Of a DNA stretch of 38,863 nt, positions 22,427 to 28,111 are shown in pieces. Below the pieces are notes generated by a model. That model did not search any database. It was given only the letters and a program-made list of their open reading frames with translations, and had not been told where the DNA came from. Source of the stretch: Lysobacterales bacterium 63-13 (GTDB lineage Bacteria > Pseudomonadota > Gammaproteobacteria > Xanthomonadales > Rhodanobacteraceae); NCBI GenBank assembly GCA_001899855.1, contig MKWR01000015.1, forward strand, positions 119,826-158,688, in the 5' to 3' direction. Numbering within the stretch: position 1 is the first letter of the stretch; every line of letters begins with the position of its first letter. A program made the position numbers and the translations under genes.

Positions 22427-23707
22427 GTGACTGCGATCAAGCGAGTCGGTGTCATCGGTGGTGTGCGCATTCCGTTTTGCCGCAACAACACCACGTATGC
22501 CGACATCGGCAATTTCGGCATGTCGGTGAAAACCCTCGGTTCGCTGGTCGAGCGCTACGGACTGCATGGCGTCGAACTCGGCGAGGTCGCCTTCGGCGCG
22601 GTCATCAAGCACGCTTCGGAATGGAACCTGGCCCGCGAGGCGACCTTGTCCTCGGGACTGGCACCGACCACGCCGGGCATCACCACGGCACGCGCCTGCG
22701 GCACCGGCCTCGACAACGCCATCATCATCGCCAACAAGATTGCCAGCGGCCAGATCGAAGCCGGCATTGCCGGTGGCAGCGATACCACCAGCGACGTGCC
22801 GATCGTCTACGGACGCGCCTTGCAGCAGCGCCTGCTCGCGGTCAATCGCGCGAAGAAACCGTTCGACAAGCTGAAGACCGCGCTCAAGGGTTTCTCCTTT
22901 GGCGAGTTGGCACCGTCGTTCCCCGGCGTCGCCGAACCGCGCACCGGCAAGTCGATGGGCGATCATTGCGAGCTGATGGCGCGCGAATGGAACATCTCGC
23001 GGGAAGATCAGGACAGGCTCGCCTGGGAGAGCCACCAGAAGGCCGCCGCGGCCTATGAACGCGGATTCTTCAAGGATCTGGTGGTGCCGTTCCGTGGCCT
23101 TGATCGCGACAACATCCTGCGCCCCGACACCACCCTGGAAAAACTCGCTGCGCTGAAACCCGCCTTCGACAAGAGCTCCGGACACGGCACCCTCACCGCC
23201 GGCAACTCGACGCCGCTCAGTGATGGCGCATCGGCCGTGCTGCTGGGCTCGGAAGCCTGGGCCAGGGAGCGTGGCCTGTCGGTGCAGGCCTGGATCACCC
23301 ACGCCGAGGTGGCCGCGGTGGATTTCGTGCATGGCGAAGGCCTGCTCATGGCACCGACGATCGCCGTTCCGCGCATGCTCGATGCGGCGGGCATCACCCT
23401 GCAGGATTTCGACTACTACGAAATCCACGAAGCCTTTGCCGCGCAGGTCTTGTGCACCCTGCGCGCCTGGGAATCGGAAGACTACTGCAGGAATCGTCTT
23501 GGTCGCGACAAGGCGCTTGGCGCCATCGATCCGGCCAAGCTCAATGTCAACGGCTCGAGTCTTGCCCTTGGCCATCCGTTCGCGGCAACCGGCGCGCGCA
23601 TTGTCGCGACCCTGGCCAAACTGCTGGAACAGAAGGGATCCGGCCGCGGCCTGATCTCGATCTGCACCGCCGGCGGCATGGGCGTGACGGCGATACTCGA
23701 ACGTTAG
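22427..23707 (+). CDS. Acetyl-CoA C-acyltransferase (thiolase, FadI-like)
   Basis: A 426-residue thiolase that cleaves 3-ketoacyl-CoA in fatty-acid beta-oxidation, or makes acetoacetyl-CoA in the reverse direction. The nucleophile is C91 in ARACGTGLDN; the acid-base residues are H334 in YEIHEAFAAQV and C413 in SICTAGGMG, with GHPFAATGAR also present. Length and the AVNRAKKPFDKL...FSFGELAP insert point to the larger FadI/trifunctional-beta type rather than the short acetoacetyl-CoA thiolase. The start is GTG at 22427 with GAGG six bases before. There is no fadJ or other beta-oxidation partner next to it, so it is probably a solitary unit. Confidence 0.9.
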   Translation: MTAIKRVGVIGGVRIPFCRNNTTYADIGNFGMSVKTLGSLVERYGLHGVELGEVAFGAVIKHASEWNLAREATLSSGLAPTTPGITTARACGTGLDNAIIIANKIASGQIEAGIAGGSDTTSDVPIVYGRALQQRLLAVNRAKKPFDKLKTALKGFSFGELAPSFPGVAEPRTGKSMGDHCELMAREWNISREDQDRLAWESHQKAAAAYERGFFKDLVVPFRGLDRDNILRPDTTLEKLAALKPAFDKSSGHGTLTAGNSTPLSDGASAVLLGSEAWARERGLSVQAWITHAEVAAVDFVHGEGLLMAPTIAVPRMLDAAGITLQDFDYYEIHEAFAAQVLCTLRAWESEDYCRNRLGRDKALGAIDPAKLNVNGSSLALGHPFAATGARIVATLAKLLEQKGSGRGLISICTAGGMGVTAILER

Positions 23708-23780: not shown

Positions 23781-25127
23781 ATGGAATCGAACAAGCATGC
23801 GCTGATCTTGACCGGCGATCTGCTGGCGGGCTTCGAAGCGGGTGCCGTCTGGCAGGCGGTTGCCGAGCACTTCCGCATCGAGCCTGCGCGCCTGCACGGC
23901 GAGGTGCTGGCGCGGGTGCCGATGATGCTCAAGGAATCCGAAGACCTCGCCGATCTCGAGCGCCGCGCCGCTGCCCTGCGTGCCATCGGTGCGCAATGCG
24001 AAGTGCATCCCTCCAGCGGTGGCAGCTACTTTGTCCTCCTTGAAAATGTGCCACGCGGCCCGCTGCCACGCAGCTACATTGATCAGCGCATTCGCAGCGG
24101 TGCCTGGCCGGCGGTGCTCAAGGCGGCGCCGCCCGGCAGTTCCGAATGGCGCGTGCTGCCACCGCTCGCCGCCGGCGTGCCACTGGCAGCGCTTGCCGCT
24201 GCAGCGATCCCGGCCGCGGCCGAGAGCGAGGCCGATACGGTTGCGGCGAAAATCGCCCGCGTCGCCGACGGCATCGCCAGTCGCAAGGAAGCCGTGTTGC
24301 CCTTGCCGGCCGGCGAGGCCATCCATGCCGGCTTCTGGCGTCGCTGTGCGGCGTATCTGATCGACAACCTGATCCTGGCCATTCCGACCACGATCATCCT
24401 GATGATTCCCATCCTCGGCTTCTTCGTCTACATCGCCGGTCGCTGGGCGTATTTCGCACTGATGGAAAGTTCGCCCGCGCAGGCGACCCTCGGCAAGCGC
24501 GCCATGGGCATCATCGCCACCGACGGCAAGGGCCAGCGCCTGAATCTCGGCCAGGCCAGCGGACGCTACTTTGCCGGCGCTATCTCCTACATCACCTTGT
24601 ATATCGGCTATGCGCTGGCGGGCTGGACCACGCGCAAGCAGGCCCTGCACGACCTCATTGCCGATACCTGCGTGGTTTTCGACACGGTGCGCCCGGACCA
24701 GCCGCTGCCGACGGTGCGCCCGCGCATGCCATGGTATGGCTGGGCCGCAAACTGCCTGCTTCTGGCCGTGTTCCCGATTGCCATCCTTGCCGCGATTGCC
24801 CTGCCGGCCTACCAGCAATACACCGTGCGGGCCAAGGTGGCGATGGCCATGGTTGATGCCGATGCGGCCAAGCTTGCGGTCGCCGAAGCGGTCGCTGCGC
24901 AGGACGGTTGCCAGGCGCAATTCCCCGCATCGACCAATCCCCTCGTCGCCTCGATCCGCATCAGCGGCGAGGCTCCGGACTGCGTGGTGACCCTGTTGTT
25001 CGCCGCGGATTCCAGTACGCCCGGCATGATCCGTGGCCAGGCCGTCGAATGGCAGTATTCCGATGCGGCAGCCTGGACCTGCAGCTCGGCCATCGAGTCG
25101 AAATACCTGCCGGCTTCCTGCCGCTGA
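23781..25127 (+). CDS. RDD membrane protein with C-terminal type IV pilin-like domain (paralogue 1)
   Basis: A 448-residue protein of unusual make-up. Residues 1-75 form an N-terminal domain (HALILTGDLLAGFEAGAVW). Residues 82-125 look like a GYF_2/DUF4339-type module (LENVPRGPLP...RSGAWP). Residues 182-300 are an RDD domain with membrane segments (AGFWRRCAAYLIDNLIL; TLGKRAMGI; RKQALHDLIADTCVV). Residues 320-370 copy a type IV pilin N-terminal helix (ILAAIALPAYQQYTVRAKV), and the rest resembles a pilin C-terminal domain ending WTCSSAIESKYLPASC. Cysteines are C377, C401, C434 and C447. The prepilin glycine is in register (G320) but Glu5 is Cys. Start at 23781 after a GGGGAGGGGAGG ribosome site. 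Function unknown; no such fusion is known to me. Confidence 0.8.
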   Translation: MESNKHALILTGDLLAGFEAGAVWQAVAEHFRIEPARLHGEVLARVPMMLKESEDLADLERRAAALRAIGAQCEVHPSSGGSYFVLLENVPRGPLPRSYIDQRIRSGAWPAVLKAAPPGSSEWRVLPPLAAGVPLAALAAAAIPAAAESEADTVAAKIARVADGIASRKEAVLPLPAGEAIHAGFWRRCAAYLIDNLILAIPTTIILMIPILGFFVYIAGRWAYFALMESSPAQATLGKRAMGIIATDGKGQRLNLGQASGRYFAGAISYITLYIGYALAGWTTRKQALHDLIADTCVVFDTVRPDQPLPTVRPRMPWYGWAANCLLLAVFPIAILAAIALPAYQQYTVRAKVAMAMVDADAAKLAVAEAVAAQDGCQAQFPASTNPLVASIRISGEAPDCVVTLLFAADSSTPGMIRGQAVEWQYSDAAAWTCSSAIESKYLPASCR

Positions 25128-25247
25128 TGGGCGCCGCGGGCCGAAGGCGTGCATCTGCCGCGCCTGCCGGCGATACTTGATCCGCAATCGGGCCGCTTGC
25201 CGGCACTGGCCCGCAACCACCACTGAAATCGAACGGGAATGGAAACA

Positions 25248-26834
25248 ATGCAACCCATCAAGCACGCCCTGGTTCTGACCGGTGAAATCCTGCCTGGTTT
25301 CGACGCCGCGACGGTCTGGCCGGCTCTGGCCGCCTACTTCCGCATGGAGCCCGAGCGGCTCAAGGCCGAGTTGCTGGCCCGCGCGCCCATCTCGATCAAG
25401 GAAAGCGACGATCTCGGCAAATTGCAGAAATTGCAGGATGGCGCAGCGGCCATCGGCGCGGCGACGGATCTGCAGGCCGTCAGCGGCGACAACCTGTTCG
25501 TGCTGGTCGATGGCGTGCCGCGCGGTCCGGTGCCGCATGCCTTCGTCGAGGATCGCGTGCGCAGCGGGGCCTGGCCATCGAGCATCAGCATTGCCGTGGT
25601 CGGCAGCTCCGACTGGAAGCCGTTCATCGTGCCGAGCTCGCCAGCCACCGACATGGACCAGCAGGCCACGGTCGCCTTCAGCACGATTCGCGCCGAAGCC
25701 ATGGCGCCAAGTGCGGCAAGTGCACCAAGGCCGGCGGCACCGGCGGCCGTCGACATGCGCATGGCCGCTGCGGCGCCTGCCGCCGTGGCATTCACGCCGT
25801 CTGCCGCCGCCGGCAACCTGTTGCCCGAAGGCGGTATCGTGCATGCCGGCTTCTGGCGCCGATTCGCCGCCTACTCGCTGGATTCGCTGATCCTGACGAT
25901 TCCCTTCCTGATCGTCTTTGGCCTGCTCGGATACCTCAGCTTCCGTGCCGCGATGTCGGGCGAGTCGCCGGGTGGCATGATCTTCCTGTTTTACTTCCTT
26001 GCCTATGTGGGTGCGATCGTCGGCTCGTGGCTGTACTTCGCCAAGTTCGAGAGCGGCGTCAACCAGGCCACGCCGGGCAAGCGCATCATGGGCCTGAAGG
26101 TCACCAATGCCAGCGGCGAGCGCATCACTTTCGGTCGCGCGACCGGTCGCTTCTTCGGCAAGATCGTCACCGGCATCATTCCCTTCGGCATTGGCTGGAT
26201 GATGGCCGGCTTCACCGGCCGCAAGCAGGCCCTGCACGACATGATGGCCAGCACCTGCGTGGTGTTCCGCGAGGTGAACCCCGGCCAACCGCTGCCGACC
26301 GTGCGGCCGAAGATGCCGTGGTACGGCTGGGTGCTCAACGGCCTGCCGATCCTCGGCATGATCATCATGATCGCTGGCTACAGCTACATGATCAGCATGT
26401 TCATGGGGCGCATGGGCAGCATGGATATCCCCGATTCCTCGATGTCCGGGCTTCCGGACATGTCGAGCAGCAGCCCGGACCTGTCCAGTTCAAGCAGCAG
26501 CTCGGGCGTCGACGAGGGCGACAAGGAGACGATCCGCACCGGCCTGACCGCCGTGTACATGGTCGCCAGTGCCACGCAAAGCGAAGTGGCGGCCGTTGCC
26601 GATGCCGCCGGCGATTGCCCGGCGGAGGAACGCAGCTCGGACAATGCCTGGATCGAATCGATCCAGCTTGGCGGCATTTCGCCCGCATGCACGGTGACGA
26701 TCCGCCTGTCCTCGTCATCCGACATTCCGTTTGCCGCGCGCATCGAACGCATCGAGTGGACCTACACCGGCAACGGCAACTGGCGCTGCGAATCGAGCAT
26801 GGCCTCGGATCTGTTGCCGTTTGCCTGCAACTGA
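25248..26834 (+). CDS. RDD membrane protein with pilin-like four-cysteine domain (paralogue 2)
   Basis: A 528-residue paralogue of the preceding gene with the same order of parts. There is an N-terminal domain (KHALVLTGEILPGFDAATVW), a GYF-like module (VDGVPRGPVPH...RSGAWP), an Ala/Pro-rich linker (about 150-190) and an RDD domain (about 198-340, AGFWRRFAAYSLDSLIL, ATPGKRIMGLKV). After that come another membrane segment (360-386), a Ser-rich spacer (397-419) and a C-terminal domain with C457, C481, C514 and C527. These cysteines repeat the 24/33/13 spacing of paralogue 1, but the ILAAIALP pilin helix is lost. ATG 25248 is chosen because MQPIKHALVLTG then aligns exactly with the paralogue; ATG 25239 is possible. 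Tandem duplication with divergence is the simplest reading. Confidence 0.8.
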   Translation: MQPIKHALVLTGEILPGFDAATVWPALAAYFRMEPERLKAELLARAPISIKESDDLGKLQKLQDGAAAIGAATDLQAVSGDNLFVLVDGVPRGPVPHAFVEDRVRSGAWPSSISIAVVGSSDWKPFIVPSSPATDMDQQATVAFSTIRAEAMAPSAASAPRPAAPAAVDMRMAAAAPAAVAFTPSAAAGNLLPEGGIVHAGFWRRFAAYSLDSLILTIPFLIVFGLLGYLSFRAAMSGESPGGMIFLFYFLAYVGAIVGSWLYFAKFESGVNQATPGKRIMGLKVTNASGERITFGRATGRFFGKIVTGIIPFGIGWMMAGFTGRKQALHDMMASTCVVFREVNPGQPLPTVRPKMPWYGWVLNGLPILGMIIMIAGYSYMISMFMGRMGSMDIPDSSMSGLPDMSSSSPDLSSSSSSSGVDEGDKETIRTGLTAVYMVASATQSEVAAVADAAGDCPAEERSSDNAWIESIQLGGISPACTVTIRLSSSSDIPFAARIERIEWTYTGNGNWRCESSMASDLLPFACN

Positions 26835-27803: not shown

Positions 27804-27874
27804 AAGGTGGGTTCGATCCGTGATCGAACGCTTTGCCCCATCGTGGAAAGCGTCAGCGCGCAGCGCCGACCCAC
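27804..27874. repeat. Palindromic repeat unit, copy A (71 bases)
   Basis: A 71-base unit bounded by GTGGGT on the left and ACCCAC on the right. It holds two potential hairpins: TTCGATC-CGT-GATCGAA (27812-27828) and, near the right end, GTC(A)GCGC-GCA-GCGC(C)GAC. It is 68/71 identical to copy B. The paired inverted structure recalls REP/BIME-type elements, which I infer but cannot confirm from one locus. Confidence 0.75.
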
Positions 27875-27914
27875 GGGATGCGCCGATGTGTGAGGTGGTA
27901 TCGCTGCGCATTGC

Positions 27915-27985
27915 AAGGTGGGTTCGATCTGTGATCGAACGCTTTGCCCCACCCTGGAAAGCGTCAGCGCGCAGCGCCGACCCAC
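27915..27985. repeat. Palindromic repeat unit, copy B (71 bases)
   Basis: The second full unit, differing from copy A by three substitutions. The inner hairpin TTCGATC-TGT-GATCGAA is at 27923-27939, and the second hairpin at 27963-27981. In this copy GGTGGG at the left also pairs with CCCACC about 30 bases on, lengthening the first hairpin. Confidence 0.75.
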
Positions 27986-27999
27986 AAGAAGCGGGATGT

Positions 28000-28030
28000 T
28001 GGAAAGCGTCAGCGCGCAGCGCCGACCCAC
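28000..28030. repeat. Partial repeat unit, copy C (31 bases)
   Basis: The right-hand 31 bases of the unit only (from TGGAAAGCG to the terminal ACCCAC). With the AAGAAG that follows, 37 bases (28000-28036) exactly repeat 27955-27991, so copy C looks like a recent local duplication of the end of copy B. Confidence 0.75.
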
Positions 28031-28111
28031 AAGAAGTTGTGGCTTGAGTCGCGCATCCGGCCAGGCCGGTCTGCGATGATCGTCATCTGCCAGGCCAACG
28101 GAATCGCCAGC

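Follow-up and report, generated by a model that had tools for sequence, protein, structure and literature searches.

The stretch analysed here (the window, 38,863 nucleotides of contig MKWR01000015.1 of Lysobacterales bacterium 63-13) carries two neighbouring genes whose products, P0001 (copy 1) and P0002 (copy 2), join an RDD membrane domain to a C-terminal domain of the type IV pilin kind. An earlier note, made from the letters alone, had described them as tandem RDD-pilin chimeras, and this observation is confirmed: both open reading frames (ORFs) are intact, and both products exceed the Pfam cut-offs for RDD (PF06271, 24.1 bits; scores in Table 1) and for Pilin (PF00114, 22 bits; 50.3 bits for copy 1 and 22.7 for copy 2). 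The copies are 36% identical. Profile matches and AlphaFold models identify them as two paralogous, predicted membrane proteins, each with an N-terminal domain of the L7/L12 or ClpS fold, a GYF-like domain, the RDD domain and a type IVa pilin module, the prepilin-signal segment of which (Gly at -1, Phe1 and Glu5 in pilin numbering) is replaced by RDD-side sequence.

At the level of fold the N-terminal domain is of the L7/L12 C-terminal domain (CTD) or ClpS type, and in a profile search seven of its eight matches were L7/L12, all weak (best expectation value, E, 0.17). The GYF-like module proposed in the earlier note stands as a fold, visible in the models of both copies, but not as a profile match, Pfam listing no GYF in either protein at E up to 10; among relatives, the GYF/GYF_2 profile (cut-off 25.8) gives 21.8 bits for L071, 46.2 for L044 and 54.9 for L079.

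Table 1. Positions in the window of the two chimera genes and their parts (aa, amino acids; pLDDT, predicted local distance difference test).
Feature	Residues	Positions	Strand	Remarks
Copy 1, P0001, RDD-pilin chimera, 448 aa		23781-25127	+	intact ORF; Pfam RDD and Pilin; AlphaFold mean pLDDT 90.9
Copy 1 N-terminal domain, L7/L12-CTD/ClpS-like fold	1-78	23781-24014	+	
Copy 1 GYF-like domain	79-125	24015-24155	+	
Copy 1 RDD domain	183-294	24327-24662	+	Pfam PF06271, 62.3 bits
Copy 1 membrane helix including second half of pilin helix, ILAAIALPAYQQYTVR	318-350	24732-24830	+	model helix 318-372; P342, Y344, Y347 and R350 invariant in 17/17 aligned chimeras
Copy 1 pilin head, four Cys	349-448	24825-25124	+	
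Copy 2, P0002, RDD-pilin chimera, 531 aa		25239-26834	+	intact ORF; Pfam RDD and Pilin; AlphaFold mean pLDDT 84.4
Copy 2 L7/L12-CTD/ClpS-like domain	1-81	25239-25481	+	
Copy 2 GYF-like domain	82-128	25482-25622	+	Foldseek to GltJ GYF 7z3c: probability 0.98, 1.8 A, 45 columns, E 0.2
Copy 2 RDD domain	203-337	25845-26249	+	Pfam PF06271, 84.0 bits
Copy 2 last membrane helix, without pilin motif	361-394	26319-26420	+	model helix 361-394; hydropathy
Copy 2 serine-rich tether	395-425	26421-26513	+	pLDDT <50 over 401-412 and 414-422
Copy 2 pilin head, begins near pilin residue 25	426-531	26514-26831	+	

The pilin-like character of the C-terminal domain is borne out by the Pilin matches and by the AlphaFold models, which contain the type IV pilin fold (a long helix and a four-stranded sheet). 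A search of solved structures with P0001 returned 18 matches, all of them pilin or pilus entries (best E 3.6e-6). The last four cysteines lie at residues 377, 401, 434 and 447 of copy 1 and 460, 484, 517 and 530 of copy 2, exactly 24, 33 and 13 apart in both as first reported, and this spacing recurs in all eight copy-1 and six of the eight copy-2 sequences of the genus, the remaining two having 24/32/13. A domain marked out by its four cysteines is thus real as regards the exact and conserved spacing, but the cysteines as such are ordinary: the final two correspond to the C-terminal loop usual in pilins, and four cysteines, spaced 19/36/14, are present in the PilA of this genome as well. That PilA (L007, G000:C23:76163-76489; GFTLIELM) lies beside a same-strand ORF of at least 463 aa with the look of a polytopic membrane protein, perhaps a glycosyltransferase (a guess from appearance). 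The window's genome also encodes a 182-aa protein (L006, G000:C13:266674-266937; Pfam Pilin 42.5 bits) in which an N-terminal membrane anchor of ordinary appearance precedes a pilin head that lacks the pilin helix.

Pilin residue n corresponds to residue n+320 of P0001, which places Gly320 at -1 and Cys325 at position 5. The register given earlier (prepilin glycine aligned, Glu5 changed to Cys) is therefore correct, and so is the loss of the FTLIE motif: copy 1 has Trp at position 1 and Cys at position 5 and does not match GFTLIE, and copy 2 lacks the region altogether. The signal occurs in none of 63 distinct RDD-family ORFs with a pilin profile match, compared with GF[TS][LF]IEL in 53 of a further 63 ORFs matched by that profile (repeats left in). 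The RDD-family set includes two split, RDD-less forms (L204, L226) and L073, which is cut at a contig end; it holds no copy-2 sequences, which the pilin profile built here missed. The aligned glycine could be taken for a trace of a prepilin site. This we reject, because it sits in a motif, MPWYGW, that is also present in nine of the ten printed RDD relatives without a pilin module (L065, L066, L067, L069, L070, L074, L075, L076 and L078; not L077). An unusual pilus subunit, processed and assembled, would account for the full pilin fold and for the glycine of copy 1; yet the residues at positions 1 and 5, the absence of the signal from all 63 ORFs, the sharing of the glycine with pilin-less relatives and the multi-pass RDD domain standing in front make this extremely improbable. 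Since there is no prepilin signal, the chimeras are expected to stay anchored, as the earlier note had it. Processing by PilD, extraction and assembly would accordingly not occur, and the proteins would sit in the inner membrane with the N-terminus inside and a disulfide-bonded head in the periplasm.

From about residue 13 on, the pilin helix is kept in copy 1 and in most relatives. In all 17 aligned chimeras the counterparts of P22, Y24, Y27 and R30 are unchanged; in a set of 21 rows Y24 and R30 are invariant and P22 and Y27 reach at least 90%. Among the 63 ORFs, of which 60 could be placed and three could not, P22 is found in 57, Y24 in 60, Y27 in 56 and R30 in 57, counts that are partly circular for P22, Y24 and R30 because the motif itself served to find the place; the same applies to P22 and Y24 in the set used for head charge (below), but not to the count of 17.

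The C-terminal domain had been claimed to be under constraint, and it is. In the two genome pairs that are unsaturated, the ratio of nonsynonymous to synonymous substitution rates (dN/dS) is 0.10 and 0.04 for the helix and 0.16 and 0.11 for the head of copy 1, and 0.06 and 0.10 for the head of copy 2; all other parts are below 1 as well. Some short parts have values of 1 or above when distant pairs are compared. Over 21 pairs of seven genomes, which are non-independent and mostly near saturation, the helix of copy 1 is more conserved than its head in every pair, and the head of copy 2 is more conserved than its transmembrane (TM) part in 18, less in two (G121/G099 and G099/G073) and tied in one. 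This pattern suggests that the copies may share out intramembrane (copy 1) and periplasmic (copy 2) contact. Variable linkers and the existence of pilin-less relatives could point to a decaying gene fusion with a functionless head, which we regard as very improbable: in the unsaturated pairs both head and helix have dN/dS far under 1, 14 of 16 genus sequences retain the cysteine spacing, and the distribution is wide.

Within the family, RDD-pilin chimeras were read at loci of at least 28 of 147 genomes, in eight of 26 genera, plus one cut at a contig end. The window's genus has them in eight of ten genomes, in each of which copy 1, with its helix kept, precedes copy 2, with the pilin helix lost and the head tethered (in G110 copy 1 is truncated by the contig end). 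The same asymmetric pair, with cysteine spacings of 25/33/13 and 27/33/14, lies on a contig of a Burkholderiaceae metagenome-assembled genome (MAG; L154), which may be misbinned. Among culturable relatives, Dokdonella immobilis (L149) has the pair. Across 79 named loci, from a set of the best 80 matches, 51 of 93 ORFs matching P0001 also match the pilin profile, which misses the copy-2 type, and none has the signal. Chimera records among the matches listed are gammaproteobacterial (Dokdonella, Oleiagrimonas, Rhodanobacter, Luteimonas, Lysobacter, Arenimonas, Chiayiivirga, Stenotrophomonas, Thermomonas, with the helix alone clear, Aliikangiella and other Kangiellaceae), betaproteobacterial (Gallionella, Chitinilyticum, an Azonexus MAG, a Burkholderiaceae MAG and two MAGs titled to class) or MAGs with broader titles. 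In a scan of 369 genomes across the class, the genome of the window was the only one, among the matches listed, with a match that covered both RDD and pilin; because the named loci show carriers outside the family, the spread in the class is patchy rather than nil. The N-terminal part varies among relatives (L12-like plus GYF, GYF_2 alone, a zinc ribbon, or none), and in Stenotrophomonas (L204) and Lysobacter (L226) the halves are split into adjoining ORFs, a TM-pilin protein (with GYF in L204) and a GYF-RDD protein.

Several variants were seen alongside. Genus g24 has a second, different tandem pair of RDD-pilin chimeras with the pilin helix in both (L039, L045), and in L040 and L158 some 140-220 extra residues follow the pilin head. 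Signal-less pilin heads also occur on other backbones in family genomes. Four chimeras of 385-430 aa combine a GYF-type start, several membrane helices and a pilin head (L079, L080, L083, L086); the two that were scanned, L079 and L086, exceed the cut-offs for GYF_2 and Pilin, with DUF4234 below its cut-off. Proteins of 645-773 aa, some cut at the locus end, terminate in a hydrophobic segment and a signal-less pilin head (L081, L082, L084, L085, L087, L088, L090). They look like large lipoproteins, with a lipobox-like start in four of the five printed and Pfam Pilin in the two scanned, and a periplasmic body would make the topology of the head hard to explain.

In a tree of aligned head sequences, those from RDD chimeras group together: the RDD label needs five changes compared with a mean of 27.3 for shuffled labels, and the starred branches force at least two. 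The approximately unbiased test does not reject a tree in which all RDD heads form one clade (p-AU 0.573, three long rows, L006, L040 and L104_827, having been left out beforehand). Repeats and partial ORFs of L005, L008, L098, L108 and L118 were excluded from the head comparison, as was the truncated L073. In the RDD tree (102 rows, eight ORFs dropped because their RDD ends were not found by motifs, 27 named loci left out as judged repeats) the label needs at least eight changes at weak support, which is compatible with one origin and does not separate gain from loss. With the PilA of its own genome the head of P0001 shares 30% identity, with the closest PilA from a different genus 37%, and with other chimeras as much as 52%; on these values, the idea that the head mimics the PilA of its own strain is not supported. 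Lineage g25 (L052-L055) may represent a separate capture, its heads being 45-59% identical to PilA from its own genus.

Upstream of copy 1 lies a thiolase-like ORF (22427-23707, named by reading of its sequence), 73 bases from the copy 1 start, and a promoter and terminator scan returned none of either. Further along the window, at 27804-28038, a 79-nucleotide unit is repeated three times (the other two 92% and 62% like the reference) and extends into the start of the ORF at 27944. Flanking genes were clustered by similarity and judged by eye, not annotated; among the clusters listed, no neighbour is common to all chimera loci. In 11 loci of eight named groups (L166, L167, L170, L188, L199, L200, L204, L210, L212, L226 and one more), LysM-, dprA-like and topA-like genes, named by sequence reading and with their order not checked in each, flank the chimera or split pair.

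ComP and similar minor pilins bind DNA. A periplasmic DNA receptor, whose head would bind incoming DNA and hand it on, would fit these dprA- and topA-like flanks and the weak Pfam ComP_DUS matches of three of ten relatives scanned, all below cut-off. However, the dprA-topA order is probably old synteny and the window's pair sits elsewhere, and DNA binding is unlikely because the heads are neutral to acidic by net charge: the median is -1 (range -8 to 6) in 32 helix-bearing RDD heads and -7 in eight copy-2 heads, against +2 in 50 PilA-type heads. We rate this reading as improbable.

Both proteins probably stay in the membrane as permanent components, with the pilin fold put to another use. As a mechanism we tentatively favour, as the most likely one, a membrane-locked pilin mimic acting as an adaptor. 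The copy 1 helix (pilin residues ~13-30) and the copy 2 head would touch a partner that normally recognises pilins, candidates being the subunits of the pool, the inner-membrane platform of the pilus or a pilin-handling factor, and the GYF, zinc-ribbon or L12-like cytoplasmic domains would link this contact to a second partner, in the cytoplasm. The two tandem proteins would split the work, copy 1 providing the intramembrane helix and copy 2 a flexibly tethered head. A partner of the pilin type is argued for because the landmarks of the pilin helix are kept. The interpretation in the earlier note is partly supported; sensing, capping or sequestering of pilin subunits would be candidate roles.

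Several observations weigh against the adaptor. Two of the ten genus genomes (G004, G086) encode an RDD protein that shares the N-terminus but has no pilin module, and the head is therefore dispensable there. Copy 2 barely exceeds the Pilin cut-off, and its relatives escaped the pilin profile built here. The heads are no closer to the PilA of the same genome than to other pilins, and no pil gene was recognised in the flanks among the clusters listed. The co-occurrence with pil genes that had been suggested as a check was followed with PilQ and is uninformative: PilQ is present in 147 of 147 family genomes (143 over the cut-off), and all 11 carriers outside the order exceed the cut-off too, but because it is also found in most genomes of the class (156 of 185 over the cut-off, 175 at E up to 0.001), the pairing says nothing. 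TM helices are often conserved anyway, and any partner is putative. Caution on the pilus link is needed because the strain's own PilA is not mimicked, no pil neighbour was recognised and heads occur on unrelated backbones.

In another possible reading, to which we give somewhat less than even credence, the head would be a general-purpose, stable periplasmic domain, outside pilus biology altogether, which binds a polysaccharide, a ligand of the envelope or another protein and serves the RDD/GYF part for docking or as its ligand domain. The signal-less heads on the four GYF proteins with several TM helices and on the large lipoprotein-like proteins fit this, as do the loss of the pilin helix with retention of the head in copy 2, heads that do not track PilA and flanks without a recognised pil gene. 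Against it, nearly every aligned RDD chimera that has the helix retains pilin residues 14-30, and in copy 1 the helix is more conserved than the head, which a mere carrier of the head would not need.

Compared with type IVa pilins (PF00114; PilA/PilE, e.g. the P. aeruginosa K122-4 pilin, 1qve), the chimeras share the helix and four-stranded sheet, the C-terminal cysteine loop (ending in YLPxxCR in copy 1) and, in copy 1, P22/Y24/Y27/R30, but they have no prepilin signal and no Glu5 and are fused behind a multi-pass RDD domain, and copy 2 has no pilin membrane helix at all. Both copies score well above the Pfam cut-off for the RDD family, from which they differ in the adaptor-like domains in front and the pilin module behind. 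GltJ of Myxococcus gliding motility has a cytoplasmic GYF domain and a zinc ribbon, then a membrane segment and a periplasmic domain. The chimeras resemble it (NF033761; GYF structure 7z3c) in placing a cytoplasmic GYF, with a zinc ribbon in relatives, before a membrane segment and a periplasmic domain; however, P0001 and P0002 are unlisted by that model (equivalog cut-off 450 bits), the GYF part of four of eight relatives scanned reaches 22-36 bits (the other four being unlisted), far below the cut-off, the periplasmic domain is different and there is no sign of a gliding machine. The pilin accessory proteins TfpX, TfpY and TfpZ are a further comparison; none of these names is among the Pfam and NCBIfam matches of P0001 and P0002, the existence of such models there not having been checked. 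A precedent for a membrane protein that reads the inner-membrane pilin pool is PilS of P. aeruginosa (Kilmury and Burrows, 2016, as cited in PMC6058289); PilS is a sensor kinase, whereas here the membrane protein itself carries the pilin fold. PMC4657364 names an RDD protein in a tat operon, with pilus genes elsewhere. No open-access paper that appears to join RDD and pilin in one protein was found, most subscription papers lying outside the search. The RDD-pilin chimera is real and conserved and, as far as we searched, previously undescribed, although the domain combination is probably already listed, uncommented, in public domain databases.

The N-terminal signal of a type IV pilin is usually seen as committing the subunit to a filament. 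A family that keeps the pilin helix and head and is signal-less in every case examined would be a second life for the pilin fold, surprising to a pilus specialist, although the link to pili is a putative one. It is conceivable, though rather doubtful at this breadth, that gamma- and betaproteobacteria have domesticated the type IVa pilin module, stripped of its assembly signal, as a recurring building block of inner-membrane adaptors outside any filament, with tandem paralogs splitting helix and head contact, and that the cell in this way reads or controls its pilin pool or pilus base from the cytoplasm. The chimeras would offer a clean handle on how cells sense and handle the inner-membrane pilin pool. 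If the head is unrelated to pili, they would still be a familiar fold reused for a new extracytoplasmic task, visible as two Pfam hits.

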